From positions 1 through 64,000 of the forward strand of contig JAHHGT010000001.1 in NCBI GenBank assembly GCA_019359745.1: a stretch of DNA of 64,000 nt. Reading direction: 5' to 3'. The notes below the pieces were generated by a model. It worked only from the letters and a program-made list of their open reading frames with translations, had not been told where the DNA came from and did not search any database. The position numbers and the translations under genes are program-made. The stretch is from Aphanothece saxicola GSE-SYN-MK-01-06B (GTDB lineage: Bacteria; Cyanobacteriota; Cyanobacteriia; PCC-6307; Cyanobiaceae). This document shows positions 16,988 to 23,628 of the stretch, piece by piece. Position 1 is the first letter of the stretch. Each line of letters begins with the position of its first letter.

Positions 16988-17640
16988 GGCAGCAGGGCAT
17001 CGTGGAGCAGGGTGCCATCCAGCATGGCGTCCCGCAGATCGGTGTCCCGCAGGTCGCAGCCGCTCAGGTCGGCGTCGCGCAGATCGGCCCCCTCCATGTT
17101 GGCGCCGTAGAGGCAGGCGCCGCGAAGATCACTGCCCTGCAACAGGACCCCCTGCAGCAGGGCGAAGCTGAGATCGGCCCCCTGGAAATCGGCCCCGCCC
17201 AGGTCGGTGCGTTGGTCGAGCCCCCCCCGGAAGTCGGCCTCCACCAGCCGGGCGGCCCGCCAGCGGCTGTGGGCCCCCAGCACGCCCCGCAGGCAACAGC
17301 GGTGCATCAGGGCGCCGTCGAAATCGGCCCCCTGCAGCCGCGCCGCCGAGAGGTCGGCGTCGTGCCAGAAGGAACCGCTGGCCGCCACGGCCGAGAGGTC
17401 GGCCCCCCAGAGCAGGGCCTGCTGGAAGCAGGCACCCTCCACGTTGGCTCCCGCCAGGCGGGCATGGCCGAAGCGCCCTTCCTTGAAGCAGCCACCGTGC
17501 AGGTCGCAATCGCCCAGATCGAGCGCCACCCCATCGAGATCCCCCAGCCGCAGGCCGGCGAAGTCGCGTCGGCCCTCCGCCAGGGCGCGTTTGAGGGCGT
17601 CGAGGTCGGTCGGGAGGTCAGAGGATGGCCGCAAGGGCAT
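16984..17640 (-). CDS. Pentapeptide-repeat protein
   Basis: A 218-residue protein built almost wholly of A(D/N)LxX-type repeats, for example AGANVEGACFQQA, GADFQGADLSFAL and GADLRDADLSGCDL. Such repeats fold as a right-handed quadrilateral beta-helix. The first 25 residues (DLDALKRALAEG) are helical. It has no signal peptide, so it is probably cytoplasmic. It overlaps the ArsR-type gene by 23 bp and gor by 4 bp. Cyanobacteria have many such proteins and their roles are mostly unknown; linkage suggests stress or redox response. Confidence 0.88.
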   Translation of the reverse strand: MPLRPSSDLPTDLDALKRALAEGRRDFAGLRLGDLDGVALDLGDCDLHGGCFKEGRFGHARLAGANVEGACFQQALLWGADLSAVAASGSFWHDADLSAARLQGADFDGALMHRCCLRGVLGAHSRWRAARLVEADFRGGLDQRTDLGGADFQGADLSFALLQGVLLQGSDLRGACLYGANMEGADLRDADLSGCDLRDTDLRDAMLDGTLLHDALLP

Positions 17641-17923
17641 CGAGTTGCTGGCGGCGGGAGGCGAGCATCAGCTTTCTGGCCTGAACCAGGAGCTGGAAGA
17701 CGCCTTTGTCGATCACTTCATAGAACACCAGGCTGCCTTCGGGACGGCGGCGCACCACGCCGGCGATCGTGAGCAGCTTGAGATGCTTGGACACCAGGGC
17801 CTGGCTGAGGCCGGTCTTCTCGACGACGGCCGTGACATTCAGCGGTCCCGGACGCAGGGTTTCAAGCACGGTGAGGCGGTTGGGTTCGGAGAACACCTTG
17901 AAATAGTCGGCGAGGGATTCCAT
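17618..17923 (-). CDS. ArsR/SmtB-type winged-helix regulator lacking cysteines
   Basis: A 101-residue repressor-type protein from ATG 17923 (MESLADYFKVFSEPNRLTVL). The recognition helix region is VVEKTGLSQALVSKHLKLL and the wing is RRRPEGSLVFYEV. There is not a single Cys, and the alpha3 metal motif (ELCVC-type) is replaced by NVTAVV, so classical As/Zn/Cd sensing is not supported. It is divergent from acsF, with two inverted repeats in between, and is the obvious candidate to control the tetrapyrrole island. In Synechocystis, the comparable acsF-ho-hemN genes are controlled by the unrelated MarR-type ChlR. The inducing signal here is unknown. Confidence 0.82.
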   Translation of the reverse strand: MESLADYFKVFSEPNRLTVLETLRPGPLNVTAVVEKTGLSQALVSKHLKLLTIAGVVRRRPEGSLVFYEVIDKGVFQLLVQARKLMLASRRQQLDALAAIL

Positions 17924-17982
17924 CGACCGCTCCAGAACCTCGGATTGTCGAGATGGTACCACGCTGTCGTCTCAAGCCAGTC

Positions 17983-18020: not shown

Positions 18021-18059
18021 TCACGTAGTATCACGTTGTCGTTATGACGTGAAGCACGT
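18021..18059. promoter_or_regulatory. TCACGT/ACGTGA dyad upstream of acsF (site 2)
   Basis: TCACGT occurs at 18021 and 18031, and ACGTGA at 18047-18052, followed by ACGT at 18056. The inner pair is a perfect 6-bp dyad with a 10-bp spacer, and the outer elements make the whole 39-bp stretch roughly symmetrical. It ends about 10 bp before the acsF start codon. The core CGTTATGACGT inside it is repeated, with two changes, upstream of the heme oxygenase gene. Confidence 0.45.
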
Positions 18060-18069
18060 CGCCCGCCAG

Positions 18070-19122
18070 ATGACAGCCACCCTCTCCCCCGGTGCTGCGG
18101 CCCCGTCCACGGCCGCGCCGGCCGCCCCGCACCTGCGCGAGGACCTGCTGACGCCACGCTTCTACACGACCCAGATCGCCAAGGCGGCCCGCACCGACCT
18201 GGAGCAGCAACGGCCGGCCTTCGACGCGATGCTCGCCGAAATGGAGGCCGACTACAACCGGGAGCATTTCGATCGCAAGGCACCGCTCGACAGGCTCCGG
18301 GATCTCAGCCCCGAGGAGAAGCAGGCCTACGAGAGCTACCTGGTGCGCTCCTGCGTGTCGGAGTTCTCCGGATTCCTGCTGTTCAAGGAGCTCTCCCGCC
18401 GGCTGTTCCAGGCGCAGCGTCCTGAGATGGGGCGGCTGTTCCAGCTGATGGCCCGCGATGAGGCCCGCCATGCCGGCTTCCTCAACCGGGCGCTGGTGGC
18501 CGAAGGCATCGAAATCGACCTGCCCAGCCTGAGCACCAAGCGACCGATCACCTGGTTCCCCCTGAGCTGGGTGCTCTACAGCGTCTTCCTGTCGGAAAAG
18601 ATCGGCTACTGGCGCTACATCCTGATTGACCGCCATCTCAAGGACCACCCCGACAGCAACTTCGCGCCCCTGTTCGATTTCTTCGAACCCTGGTGCCAGG
18701 ACGAGAACCGCCATGGGGACATCTTCAACATGCTGATCCGCTGCTGGCCCGGCCTGCGCCAGGGCTTTCGCGGCAAGTTGCTGAGTCGCTTCTTTCTCTG
18801 GTCGGTGTTTCTCACCCACAGCCTCACGGTGTGTGAGCGCGGCGACTTCTACCGGATCCTGGGCATGGATCCGGAGGCCTTTGACGCGGAGGTGATGCGC
18901 CAGACCAATCGGACGGCCCGCCGTGCCTTCCCCTGGGTGTTCGACCTGGAGAACGGCCAGTTCATCGCCCTGCGCGATCGCCTCGTCGCCTGCTTCCAGG
19001 AGATGGGCGCCGCCCGCCGCGAAGGGGCCTCCCCGATGCAGAAGCTCGGCCTGAAGCTGCGCTTCGGTGGGCTGCTGTGGCGCCAGTTCTTCCAGCCGAT
19101 GGTGCGGGTGGAGACGGTATGA
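18070..19122 (+). CDS. acsF: Mg-protoporphyrin IX monomethyl ester (oxidative) cyclase AcsF
   Basis: Diiron oxygenase that forms the fifth ring of chlorophyll (3,8-divinyl protochlorophyllide), membrane-associated. ATG 18070 (MTATLSPGAA) gives 350 residues, normal length; an upstream in-frame reading from 17953 runs through the operator region and is rejected. Diiron motifs are visible as MARDEARHAGF and CQDENRHGDI. Cyanobacteria often carry a constitutive and a low-oxygen copy. Clustering with heme oxygenase and HemN matches the low-oxygen copy (ChlA-II of Synechocystis). Its stop overlaps the next start by 4 bp. Confidence 0.92.
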   Translation: MTATLSPGAAAPSTAAPAAPHLREDLLTPRFYTTQIAKAARTDLEQQRPAFDAMLAEMEADYNREHFDRKAPLDRLRDLSPEEKQAYESYLVRSCVSEFSGFLLFKELSRRLFQAQRPEMGRLFQLMARDEARHAGFLNRALVAEGIEIDLPSLSTKRPITWFPLSWVLYSVFLSEKIGYWRYILIDRHLKDHPDSNFAPLFDFFEPWCQDENRHGDIFNMLIRCWPGLRQGFRGKLLSRFFLWSVFLTHSLTVCERGDFYRILGMDPEAFDAEVMRQTNRTARRAFPWVFDLENGQFIALRDRLVACFQEMGAARREGASPMQKLGLKLRFGGLLWRQFFQPMVRVETV

Positions 19123-19793
19123 ACGCCACTTACTGCGAGGCCTACAGCCGCATCAATGCCCTGGTGATCGTTGGAGAGGGCCTGGCGGACAGCCATTTCC
19201 GCCTGCTGGCCGGCCTGCTGCCGGAGGACAGGGACGACCTGATGCGGCTGGCGGCGATGGAGGGGCGCCATGCCCGTGACTTCGCCGGCTGCGGCAGGGA
19301 GCTGGGCATCCGTCCGGACCTGCCGCTGGCGCAGCGGCTGTTCGCGCCCCTGCATCGCCTGTTCCGCGAGGCGGTGCGCACGGGGGATCGGGTCAGTGCC
19401 CTGGTGATCCAGTGCCTGATCGTGGAGAGCTTCGCGGTGGCGGCCTACCGCTGCTACCAGCCGGTGGCCGATGCCTACGCCGCCCCGATCCTCCAGACGG
19501 TGCTGGACGATGAGGCCGAACACCTCGACTACGGCGAGCGTTGGCTGGCCGTCCGGTTCCCCGAGGTGGCGGCTCCGATCGCGGCCTGCTGTGAGCGCGC
19601 CGTACCGATCGTGCTGACGATGCTCAACGCCGTACGCGCCGATCTGACGGCGCTCGGCATCGACCCGGCCGAGCTGGTGGGCGAGTTCGTGGGCTGCTTC
19701 CAGGAGGCGATCGAGGCGGTCGGCTTCGAGCCGCGCCAGGCCCGGGCCCTGGTGGCGCGATTGGCGGGCCAGGCGGTGGAGCTGGCGACCTAG
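19119..19793 (+). CDS. Aldehyde-deformylating-oxygenase-like diiron protein
   Basis: A 224-residue ferritin-like protein clearly related to cyanobacterial ADO, which converts fatty aldehydes to alkanes. All six iron ligands are present with exactly the family spacing: E20, E48, H51, E103, E132 and H135. Conserved surroundings include YSRINALVIVGE, MEGRHARDF, IVESFAVAAY and PVADAY. No acyl-ACP reductase gene is next to it, which is where ADO usually sits. Instead it is translationally coupled (ATGA) to acsF. It may be an alternative alkane synthase or a diiron protein repurposed for the low-oxygen chlorophyll pathway. Confidence 0.8.
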   Translation: MNATYCEAYSRINALVIVGEGLADSHFRLLAGLLPEDRDDLMRLAAMEGRHARDFAGCGRELGIRPDLPLAQRLFAPLHRLFREAVRTGDRVSALVIQCLIVESFAVAAYRCYQPVADAYAAPILQTVLDDEAEHLDYGERWLAVRFPEVAAPIAACCERAVPIVLTMLNAVRADLTALGIDPAELVGEFVGCFQEAIEAVGFEPRQARALVARLAGQAVELAT

Positions 19794-20946: not shown

Positions 20947-21381
20947 TCACGGCCCCGGGACCACACCAGGGGGTGTTCCCCGAAGCGAACAACCGACGGC
21001 CACCGGCGCCCGGGGCGGCAGCCCCCCGGCCCGCTCCTGGAGCCAGCCTGACGGGATGGCGAGGCTGCCGGCGCAGCCGCCGAAGCGCAGCTGCAGCCAC
21101 GTGATCACGGACGCGTCACCAGCCACGATGGCTTCAATGCGCTCCCCGTGGGGGTCGGCGTGTCGGGCCCCTGCAGGGTGGCTGAAGGCCTGGCCCAGCC
21201 GCAGCTCCTCCACCAGATCCGGCCCCAGGTACCAGAGCTCCACGTCCGCTCCCTTGCGCTGGCGGCGTTCCTCGATCAGTTCACGCAGCTGCCCGTCCTC
21301 GCTGAGCTCCCCCAGCGGAGCCACCAGAAAGGAGAAGGAGCGCAGGGGCGCGGTGGTCGAGGTCTGGGTGCTGGCGGACAT
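20947..21381 (-). CDS. Ycf54-like cyclase partner protein
   Basis: A 144-residue protein from ATG 21381. Its core aligns by eye with Ycf54, the AcsF partner needed for oxidative cyclase activity: SFSFLVAPLGEL against the N-terminal strand, LIEERRQRKGADVELWYLG against LKERQRNYHE...IDFWLV, and AIVAGDASVITWLQLRF against AIISTNPTFITWLKLRL. It is more divergent and longer than standard Ycf54, so it is probably a second copy that pairs with the AcsF encoded 3 kb away. It is divergent from the heme oxygenase gene and shares its intergenic region. Confidence 0.72.
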   Translation of the reverse strand: MSASTQTSTTAPLRSFSFLVAPLGELSEDGQLRELIEERRQRKGADVELWYLGPDLVEELRLGQAFSHPAGARHADPHGERIEAIVAGDASVITWLQLRFGGCAGSLAIPSGWLQERAGGLPPRAPVAVGCSLRGTPPGVVPGP

Positions 21382-21451
21382 GGCGTCGTGGGGGTGCGGT
21401 GTCGGGGGGTTGCAACGAAATTGTTGCCACAGAAGCATGGAACAACAGTAC

Positions 21452-21508: not shown

Positions 21509-22210
21509 ATGACCACCGCCATCCCTGATGCCATCTCCGGCGCCATCTCCGACCATGCCGGACCCGCCGATGTGCTCGCGCGCAAGGGCTTCGGACCCCG
21601 GGTGCGACGGCTCCATGGCCGCATCGGTGCCGCCCATCACCAGGCCGAGGGCATGTCCTTCTCCCGGTCCCTGCTGGCAGGTCAGGCCAACCCCCGCCAG
21701 CTGGCGGCCCTGGTCCGTGCCCTCGCCCCCGCCTACGACCTGATCGAGACCCAGGGCCCCCTGCTCTCCGCCGCCCTGGGAGCCGAAGGTTTCCCCTGGG
21801 CCGACCTGGCCCGCAGCCAGGCCCTGCGCGAGGACATCGCCAGGCTGGCCGTTGTCCCGGCCACGCCCGCCTCTGCGGCGGCCGACATCTGGCTGGAGCA
21901 CCTGCAGCGCCTCGCGAAGCAGGCCCCCCATCGGTTCATGGCCCACGTCTACGTGCGCTACGGCGGCGATCTCTCCGGTGGCCAGCAACTGGCCGAACAG
22001 GCCAACGCCATCCTCAGGGGACTGGGCCTGCCGCCCCTGCAGTTCTGGGAGTTCCAGCGCCCCATCCCCAGGCTGAAGCAGGTGCTCCATGACGCCATCG
22101 AGCGGATGGACCTCAGCGAAGACGAGGAGCAGGAGCTGCTGGAGGAAGCGGTGGTCGCCTTCCACGACACCCAGCGGTTGCTGGCGGAGCTGGGGGACCT
22201 CGCCGCCTAG
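21509..22210 (+). CDS. ho: Heme oxygenase
   Basis: Ferredoxin-dependent opening of heme to biliverdin IX-alpha, the first step of phycobilin synthesis; soluble. Family features are the proximal-His region GAAHHQAEGMSFSRSLL, VYVRYGGDLSGGQQLAEQA with the conserved glycine helix, and ILRGLGLPPLQFWEF. Length 233 is normal. It is followed 47 bp later by hemN on the same strand, reproducing the ho2-hemN pair of the Synechocystis low-oxygen operon, so it is more likely a micro-oxic isoform than the housekeeping HO1. Confidence 0.92.
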   Translation: MTTAIPDAISGAISDHAGPADVLARKGFGPRVRRLHGRIGAAHHQAEGMSFSRSLLAGQANPRQLAALVRALAPAYDLIETQGPLLSAALGAEGFPWADLARSQALREDIARLAVVPATPASAAADIWLEHLQRLAKQAPHRFMAHVYVRYGGDLSGGQQLAEQANAILRGLGLPPLQFWEFQRPIPRLKQVLHDAIERMDLSEDEEQELLEEAVVAFHDTQRLLAELGDLAA

Positions 22211-22257: not shown

Positions 22258-23628
22258 ATGACCCCAGCGGCCACCGTTTCAGCGCCCGGCGCCAGCACGA
22301 TCGATCTGCTGCTCAAGCACGACCGGCCCGTGCCCCGCTACACGAGCTACCCCACGGCTGCGGCCTTTCACGGGGGCGTCACCGCAGCCGATCTCGAGAG
22401 CCAGCTGGCCCGCCGGACGGACGAGCCGCTGTCGCTCTACGTGCATGTGCCCTTCTGCCGCAACGCCTGCTGGTTCTGCGGCTGCAACCGCGTCACCACC
22501 GGCGCCGGTTCCAAGGTGGTGGGCCCCTACCTGGAGGCCCTGGCCACTGAACTGGAGCTGATCACGCGCCACTCCGCCCAGCGGCGGCGCCTCGCCCAGC
22601 TGCACTGGGGCGGGGGCACCCCCAACTACCTGACGATCCCCGAGCGCGAGAGCCTCTGGCGGTTGATCGAGCGTCACTTCGATCTGGCGGACGACCTGGA
22701 GGCCTCCATCGAGGTCAATCCGGAGGCCCTCAGCCGGGAGGATGTGATGGAGCTGCGCCGCCTGGGCTTCACCCGGATCAGCTTCGGTATCCAGGATGCC
22801 GATCCCCTGGTGCAGCAGGCGGTGAACCGTGTGGTGCCGGTCGACCAGCTGCGCCGGGCCATGGCCTGGATGCGGGAGGCGGACTTCGACAGCGTCAACG
22901 TGGATCTGATCTGCGGGCTGCCGCTGCAGACCCCGGAGCGTTTCGACGCCACCCTGGCCCTGGTGCAGGACCTGCGCCCCGATCGGGTCTCCCTGTTCTC
23001 CTTCGCCTACCTGCCTGAGCAGCTGCCCCTGCAGCGCAAGATCGCGCCGGAGGATCTGCCCTCCCAGCGCCAGCGGCTGCAGATGCTGGAGAGTGCCGCC
23101 TCCCGGCTGGGCGGGTGCGGTTACGACGCCATCGGCATGGATCACTACGCCCTCTCCGGCGACAGCCTGGCCGTGGCGGCGCAGGAGGGGCGCCTGCACC
23201 GCAACTTCCAGGGCTACACCACCGGTGGGGAGCTGGAGTTGCTGGGGGTGGGCCCCACGGCCATCAGCCAGTTCCCCGGGCTGTTCAGTCAGAACCAGCG
23301 GGATCTGAAGGCCTACGCGGCCAGCCTCGCCGCCGGCCAGCTGCCGGTGGAGCGGGGGCTGGTGGTCAGTGATCCGGAGGTGCTGGAGCGGCGTGAGCTG
23401 ATCCGGGAGGTGATGTGCCATTTCAAGGTGGCGATCGATCCGCAGCGCTTCAGCCGCGAATGGGCCGATCTGACCCTGCTCGCCGACGACGGCTTGGTGC
23501 GGCTGAGCCAGACCGACGGCCTGGGCCTGGTGGAGGTCACGGCCTCGGGCCGCTGGCTGATCCGCACCGTGGCAGCCGTGTTCGACCCCACCCAGCGCCG
23601 GGCGGCCTCCGGATCGCGGCTGATCTGA
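22258..23628 (+). CDS. hemN: Oxygen-independent coproporphyrinogen III oxidase
   Basis: Radical SAM enzyme that replaces oxygen-dependent HemF in heme and chlorophyll synthesis at low oxygen. The cluster motif is HVPFCRNACWFCGCNR (CxxxCxxC, plus the extra Cys of true HemN) at about residue 62. LHWGGGTPNYL is the SAM-binding GGGTP motif. LGFTRISFGIQDADPLVQQAVNR is typical of the family and is longer than shown here. Full length at 456 residues. Convergent with the short-chain dehydrogenase 7 bp away. Confidence 0.94.
   Translation: MTPAATVSAPGASTIDLLLKHDRPVPRYTSYPTAAAFHGGVTAADLESQLARRTDEPLSLYVHVPFCRNACWFCGCNRVTTGAGSKVVGPYLEALATELELITRHSAQRRRLAQLHWGGGTPNYLTIPERESLWRLIERHFDLADDLEASIEVNPEALSREDVMELRRLGFTRISFGIQDADPLVQQAVNRVVPVDQLRRAMAWMREADFDSVNVDLICGLPLQTPERFDATLALVQDLRPDRVSLFSFAYLPEQLPLQRKIAPEDLPSQRQRLQMLESAASRLGGCGYDAIGMDHYALSGDSLAVAAQEGRLHRNFQGYTTGGELELLGVGPTAISQFPGLFSQNQRDLKAYAASLAAGQLPVERGLVVSDPEVLERRELIREVMCHFKVAIDPQRFSREWADLTLLADDGLVRLSQTDGLGLVEVTASGRWLIRTVAAVFDPTQRRAASGSRLI

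Follow-up and report, generated by a model that had tools for sequence, protein, structure and literature searches.

A probable low-oxygen isozyme of aldehyde-deformylating oxygenase encoded next to a second AcsF in Cyanobiaceae

The closest described counterparts of the locus analysed here are an enzyme and a regulon. The enzyme is the canonical cyanobacterial aldehyde-deformylating oxygenase (ADO; Synpcc7942_1593, PMT1231; PF11266/TIGR04059), which consumes O2, and the regulon is the chlAII-ho2-hemN-desF set of Synechococcus PCC 7002, controlled by ChlR, a MarR-type activator. Within this set, desF is reported to encode the low-oxygen isoform of DesC, the loss of which is lethal under microoxia (PMC4500134), and a rise of the acsF-HO-hemN genes under microoxia is reported for Acaryochloris (PMC5295598). 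PCC 7002 itself is stated to be devoid of acyl-ACP reductase (AAR) and ADO (PMC4094844), and the role of cyanobacterial alkanes is described as poorly understood (PMC8661006). Two ADO homologs have been noted in each of Cyanobium gracile PCC 6307, Synechococcus CB0101 and RS9917, Cyanothece PCC 7425 and Leptolyngbya PCC 7375 (Coates 2014, PMC3903477), the second homologs being mentioned in the relevant passages of that paper only in passing, with no locus, subfamily or role attached. The earlier note on this DNA knew of no description of an ADO paired with acsF; among the top-ranked results from the open-access literature, no description of an ADO paired with acsF, hemN, heme oxygenase (HO) or low oxygen was found, although second ADO homologs as such had been noted by Coates and a member of the clade described below has been crystallised (PDB 5UX2).

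The window, i.e. the whole analysed stretch of 64 000 nucleotides of Aphanothece saxicola GSE-SYN-MK-01-06B (contig JAHHGT010000001.1), contains a second AcsF together with HO and HemN, as in the low-oxygen tetrapyrrole island of the ChlR type. It shares with the PCC 7002 regulon the AcsF and HO isozymes, HemN and a divergent regulator (desF can be likened to a desaturase found in relatives of the window) and differs from it in that the regulator is of the ArsR type and an ADO-like gene, ado2, is added. The product, ADO2, resembles the canonical ADO in its predicted fold, the six iron ligands and residues Q110, Y122 and C70 (numbering of the Synechococcus elongatus enzyme, SeADO), and differs from it in overall sequence (~40% identity), the loss of E196 and E200, the substitutions N38H, F86L and R195P, and an equivalog score below the cut-off. 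The context differs as well, ado2 lying in a low-oxygen island and not beside AAR. The reading to which we lean, from sequence comparisons, is that ado2 encodes a low-oxygen isozyme of ADO that would no longer dock to AAR.

The acsF2-ado2 pair and its island

The gene acsF2 (18070..19122, + strand) encodes a Mg-protoporphyrin IX monomethyl ester oxidative cyclase of 350 aa (NCBIfam TIGR02029 AcsF, 357.8 bits against a cut-off of 192.5), and ado2 (19119..19793, + strand) encodes an ADO-like diiron protein of 224 aa (PF11266, 206.4 bits, cut-off 28). The stop of the former and the start of the latter share a 4-bp ATGA (19119-19122), and a GGAG can be seen by eye 5 nt 5' of the ado2 ATG. As the gene 3' of ado2 lies on the opposite strand, acsF2-ado2 looks like a two-gene operon. 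The overlap, by which the earlier note tied ado2 to chlorophyll ring cyclisation, is present here, but it is not general: among 50 ADO2 loci, the two genes are immediate neighbours in the order AcsF2-ADO2 in 18, of which 6 show the 4-bp overlap, and it occurs also in G090 (L032). A desaturase and/or a GT8 gene separates AcsF2 from ADO2 in 25 of the 45 loci that have AcsF2, and ADO2 is inverted in two of the 45. Comparison of ado2 with seven relatives gives dN/dS of 0.15–0.32, i.e. the gene is under purifying selection; together with the recurrence of the same island at the loci found by the ADO2 sequence, this argues that the pairing is not due to chance, in agreement with the earlier note.

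The order of genes in the island is ArsR, AcsF2, (desaturase, GT8), ADO2, HO2, HemN. All 50 loci found by the ADO2 sequence are low-oxygen tetrapyrrole islands (one of them degraded), with AcsF2 in 45, HO2 in 43, HemN in 42, ArsR in 39 and AAR in none within flanks of up to 10 kb, which bears out the initial placement of the pair in a low-oxygen chlorophyll island. Among the five loci without AcsF2, four reach a contig edge yet keep HO2 and HemN, and the fifth, which lacks an intact AcsF2 (L109), has ArsR, the desaturase and a degraded AcsF. In the window, the heme oxygenase HO2 (21509..22210, + strand; PF01126, 82.8 bits) is followed by HemN, the oxygen-independent coproporphyrinogen III oxidase (22258..23628, + strand; TIGR00538, 453.7 bits, cut-off 324.95). 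Upstream of HO2, on the - strand, is a conserved island protein of unknown family (20947..21438; a 163-aa ORF with an uncertain true start and no Pfam match), which has a homolog in 36 of the 50 ADO2 loci; a DesC-like desaturase and a GT8-like protein are found in 16 loci each.

The regulator gene (17618..17962, - strand), divergent from acsF2 and found in the same place in the 39 loci mentioned above, encodes 114 aa for which the best models are those of ArsR (HTH_5 and HTH_metalloreg, the latter with 73.0 bits against a cut-off of 55), the match to MarR_2 being weak (27.3 bits, cut-off 27). None of the 114 residues is a cysteine, which makes a classical thiol metal sensor an unlikely role for this ArsR-type regulator. 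A probable operator (18029..18046, + strand) is situated between arsR and acsF2: an imperfect dyad TATCAC-N6-GTGATA with two mismatches here, to which the regulator would be expected to bind. At no more than two mismatches, the dyad has 39 matches across the 50 loci and 14 kb of the window (~760 kb in all), compared with 5 in one simple shuffle, and 33 of the 39 are upstream of acsF2 by our own count; because the motif was derived from the same regions in which it was counted, these numbers are not an independent test. By analogy with the described islands, ado2 would be induced under micro-oxic conditions, the putative acsF2-ado2 operon being expressed at low oxygen from a region whose operator it would share with the divergent arsR.

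Two of the loci are unusual. In a marine MAG (L117), a single island contains two distinct AcsF genes (75% and 63%) and has ADO2 and a GT8-like gene in inverted orientation, and a record titled as a Bifidobacterium breve MAG (L118) contains a cyanobacterial low-oxygen island and is probably a mislabelled or contaminated bin.

Catalytic and docking residues of ADO2

In a tree of 80 ADOs, the 25 ADO2 sequences form one clade (support 100/100). The residue counts for this clade (n=25) leave out two broken fragments (L054 and L055) and a duplicate of L002 (L056), and a few of the retained rows are truncated or have a broken frame at one end (L041, L046, L047); the canonical figures come from a set of 41, L073 being placed in ADO3, a clade from other families that is discussed below. 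The six iron ligands (E20, E48, H51, E103, E132, H135) are encoded within 19176..19523 (+ strand) and, in the alignment to SeADO, correspond to E32, E60, H63, E115, E144 and H147, with identical spacings of 28-3-52-29-3. These ligands are invariant in 25/25 ADO2, 13/13 ADO3 and 41/41 canonical sequences, at a mean identity of only ~40% between ADO2 and the canonical enzymes, and the identification of an ADO-type diiron protein with all six ligands at the family spacing was therefore correct. The score above the PF11266 gathering cut-off and the predicted ADO fold place the window's ADO2 in the ADO superfamily, and its score of 207.9 bits lies below the cut-off of the NCBIfam ADO equivalog TIGR04059 (222.65 bits).

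Residues Q110, Y122, C70 and D143 (SeADO numbering) are kept in all 25 ADO2. R62 is retained by the window's ADO2 and by 22 of the 25, being D in L059, L060 and 5ux2; its replacement by alanine is reported to lower the kcat of SeADO by 91% (PMC5356278). Each of the substitutions N38H, F86L and R195P is found in 25/25 ADO2 and 0/41 canonical sequences; F86L occurs also in 1/13 ADO3, and N38H and R195P are confined to ADO2. On the basis of the alignment, N38H and F86L could mean another substrate for ADO2. Y39F (SeADO position) is present in every ADO2 and ADO3 and in L150, a lone row from another family, compared with 3/41 canonical sequences, and may relate to oxygen use.

The crystal structure of the AAR-ADO complex is reported to show contacts of the acids of ADO helix 7 with AAR (PMC7089970). 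According to isothermal titration calorimetry (ITC) in the same source, AAR binding by E196A and E200A is 'significantly reduced' with KD 'N.D.', and that by E200A/D201A and the triple mutant is absent; about half of the heptadecane is still made by the triple helix-7 mutant, so that the complex is not required for activity. The E201A mutant of TeADO (equivalent to SeADO E200) is likewise reported to show no AAR binding (PMC9743570). In the window's ADO2, the helix-7 patch P183-A184-E185-L186-V187-G188-E189 (19665..19685, + strand), which corresponds to the site of the AAR-docking acids E196, E200 and D201 in the canonical ADO, presents A184 and G188 at the positions of E196 and E200, and E189, still acidic, at that of D201. 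Position 196 is acidic in 2/25 ADO2 vs 39/41 canonical sequences, position 200 in 0/25 vs 40/41, both together in 0/25 vs 38/41, and position 201 in 16/25 vs 41/41. A larger alignment, A2, which comprises the window and 37 of the 50 loci (leaving out L108, with a stop in its match, L114, L121 and L122, as well as L101, L106, L107, L116, L128-L131 and L134), gives acidic residues in 3/38 at E196 and 0/38 at E200. With E196 and E200 lost, docking of ADO2 to AAR in the manner of the canonical enzyme is not expected, and the protein is predicted to lack AAR binding. Residue by residue, the loss of docking acids is partial: the D201 position is acidic in the 16 ADO2 just mentioned, and E200 is kept in 13/13 ADO3.

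The AlphaFold2 model of the window's ADO2 (pLDDT 95.8, pTM 0.92) lies 0.7 A from 5ux2 and 0.9–1.7 A from canonical ADO structures. PDB entry 5ux2, titled 'Protein 19 with aldehyde deformylating oxidase activity from Synechococcus', is identical over 218/218 residues to L059, which in turn is 55% identical to the window's ADO2 (120/218), so the ADO2 clade already has a solved structure. It has the same docking-site loss and comes from the same island (AcsF2-GT8-ADO2-HO2-HemN in L059/L179), and it differs in having been deposited as an aldehyde decarbonylase. The activity is that named in the title, and as the same title series credits it to distant ferritin-like proteins (6d9f, 5uxg), deformylation may be a promiscuous activity. 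Among the top-ranked open-access results, no paper linking 5ux2 with the low-oxygen island was found. The source paper of the structure is presumably Mak et al. 2020, and the two ADO genes of Synechococcus RS9917 were reportedly tested in a patent.

Distribution and possible roles of ADO2

A check for a second, canonical ADO with AAR, which the earlier note had proposed, finds both in the same genome. The canonical-type ADO (C7:165549-166208, L002; 40% identity to the window's ADO2) is directly upstream of AAR, which starts 83 bp past its stop and is the one copy of AAR found; the possibility raised in the note that the genome has no other ADO does not hold. The second AcsF of the genome is located on the window's own contig (G000:C11:308709-309677) and is 44% identical to acsF2. 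The ADO of the window is thus an extra copy beside an extra AcsF.

The ADO2 type (50–91% identity to the window, compared with 35–43% for canonical-type copies) occurs in 25 of the 151 family genomes analysed, and a canonical-type ADO (37–43% identity) is also present in all 25. AcsF2 at no less than 70% identity is found in 42 of the 151 (G103 and G023 being partial matches). The co-occurrence of acsF and ADO, proposed as a further check, is pronounced: ADO2 is present in 24 of the 42 genomes with AcsF2 vs 1 of the 109 without (Fisher p 1.7e-15, a value that ignores relatedness), and the AcsF of this single exception, G082, is degraded. ADO2 is missing from 18 of the 42 genomes, and the stretches fetched around their AcsF2 contain none; three of the 18 belong to the window's genus and have an AcsF2 95% identical to that of the window. 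Given that some ADO2 copies are also broken (L054/L129, L055/L131), ADO2 is not needed everywhere. Outside the family, the best matches listed for the 388 genomes of the class do not exceed 45% identity, and in the genomes covered here the clade is confined to the window's family (Cyanobiaceae, judging from named relatives). The 50 loci come from a scan of named genomes and belong to Cyanobium, freshwater Synechococcus, Vulcanococcus, Aphanothece and lake or marine MAGs; they overlap the 151 family genomes (e.g. L117 and L052) and cannot be counted as an independent set.

Taken as a whole, the island would combine isozymes of oxygen-consuming steps (AcsF2, HO2 and, in relatives, a DesC-like fatty-acid desaturase) with the oxygen-independent HemN, and, since ADO consumes O2, a low-oxygen ADO isozyme would fit this set. 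Because the diiron site and the ADO fold are kept, ADO2 most likely still converts aldehydes, presumably long-chain fatty ones, to alkanes and formate at low O2. The loss of two key helix-7 acids suggests that it is undocked from AAR and would take free aldehyde, either released by AAR or from another source. Among the roles offered by the earlier note, that of an alkane synthase for micro-oxic conditions appears to be the best supported. The company of low-oxygen chlorophyll genes in which ado2 is found, together with the loss of key AAR contacts, points to micro-oxia as a condition and to free aldehyde as a mechanism, and the conservation of this neighbourhood in related cyanobacteria suggests that alkane or aldehyde metabolism has a low-oxygen version. 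Enzyme screens should reckon with the possibility that proteins annotated as 'ADO' fall into two or more functional classes.

A possible, if rather doubtful, alternative is that ADO2 has been neofunctionalised as a diiron oxygenase within the low-oxygen regulon and acts on a different, non-AAR aldehyde or another hydrophobic substrate (lipid-, carotenoid- or phytyl-derived). The loss of the docking acids, the N38H, R195P and F86L switches throughout the clade, the divergence from the canonical enzymes around invariant ligands, and the desaturase and/or GT8 genes interposed between acsF2 and ado2 in 25/45 loci would all suit such a change, but the predicted fold is within 0.7–1.7 A of solved ADOs, Q110 and Y122 are kept, and the title of 5UX2 claims deformylating activity. 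It seems unlikely that ADO2 is simply an ordinary, AAR-fed ADO located elsewhere, given that E196 and E200 are never both acidic among the 25 ADO2, the single AAR of the genome adjoins the other ADO, and none of the 50 ADO2 neighbourhoods contains AAR; what favours this option is that the fold and the ligands are those of an ADO and that helix 7 retains one of its acids, E189, at the D201 position.

The AcsF-centred role in the earlier note, in which ADO2 would be an accessory subunit or a reductant- or oxygen-handling partner of AcsF, is very unlikely. ADO2 does adjoin AcsF2, with the 4-bp overlap in the window, L032 and 6/50 loci, and almost never occurs without it (1/25 genomes), but AcsF2 dispenses with ADO2 in 18/42 genomes, including those of the same genus with a 95% identical AcsF2, other genes intervene in 25/45 loci, with inversion in two, no AcsF accompanies the ADO paralogs of other families in the stretches fetched, and the ADO-type active site is kept. 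The frequent occurrence of AcsF2 without ADO2 argues against an obligatory partner, and an obligatory accessory role is rejected on this co-occurrence. Least probable of all is that ADO2 scavenges leaked toxic aldehydes or residual O2 under micro-oxia and is not an alkane maker for its own sake: an undocked ADO could take free aldehyde, and the neighbours are low-oxygen genes, but ADO turnover is reported to be slow (0.45 per min for 1593 on heptanal; PMC5356278), which makes the enzyme poorly suited to O2 removal.

Second ADOs in other cyanobacterial families

Outside the family, at least 16 genomes have two or more ADO matches, and the 14 with two full copies were examined (G156 and G427, with two weak partial ADO matches each, were left out). 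In the tree of 80, one copy from each of the 14 genomes falls among the canonical rows, and the other belongs to ADO3, a 13-row clade from 13 genomes (support 100/100), or, in G218, is L150. The second copy is defined as the ADO3 or L150 row; in G155, G297, G304 and G465, the score-based pick was changed after the AAR neighbour had been seen and agrees with the tree. Position E196 is non-acidic in 13/13 ADO3 and in L150.

In stretches fetched up to ~9 kb on either side, and less at contig ends (L186, L191 and L204 are short), AAR is near 0/14 second copies and 10/14 first copies, so that even first-copy ADOs are not always near AAR (missing in 4/14); no AcsF is found near the second copies in these stretches. 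BchE, HO, HemN or an atypical psbA is near 9/14 second copies and 0/14 first copies. These markers were picked with some of the loci already in view, and the first copies serve as the control from within each genome. Independent convergent recruitment of ADO2, ADO3 and L150 was considered and set aside: the AU tests are compatible with a single clade of ADO2 and ADO3 (p 0.319) or of ADO3 and L150 (p 0.451), and separate origins are therefore not claimed. Tentatively, and with less confidence than for ADO2 itself, these paralogs might be viewed as one unrecognised class of AAR-uncoupled ADOs in Cyanobacteria (ADO2 in Cyanobiaceae, ADO3 and the lone variant elsewhere), which would take part in low-oxygen programmes beside AcsF2, BchE, HO, HemN, a desaturase or a Mn-ligand-deficient D1, deformylate aldehydes that are not delivered by AAR docking, and form a dedicated micro-oxic arm of alkane or aldehyde metabolism.

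Several of these loci have features of their own. The G218 locus (L182:3448-9756) encodes HO, HemN, BchE, DesC and ADO on one strand and is a low-oxygen cluster with its own ADO; the C-terminus of its BchE looks, by eye, like a response regulator. The ADO3 genes of L183, L191, L193, L194 and L209 adjoin psbA copies. In the first four of these, the psbA product lacks E189, E333 and D342, residues of D1 that we take to be ligands of the Mn cluster, and the psbA of L209 is 94% identical to that of L193. Sentinel or rogue D1 proteins also lack Mn-cluster ligand residues. Finally, a protein of ~900 aa is encoded near the second ADO in 6 of the 14 genomes (L183:6478-9186, with homologs in L184, L186, L187, L189 and L190); it consists of a start that is Crp-like by eye, a NifA-like AAA part and a NapH-like ferredoxin part.
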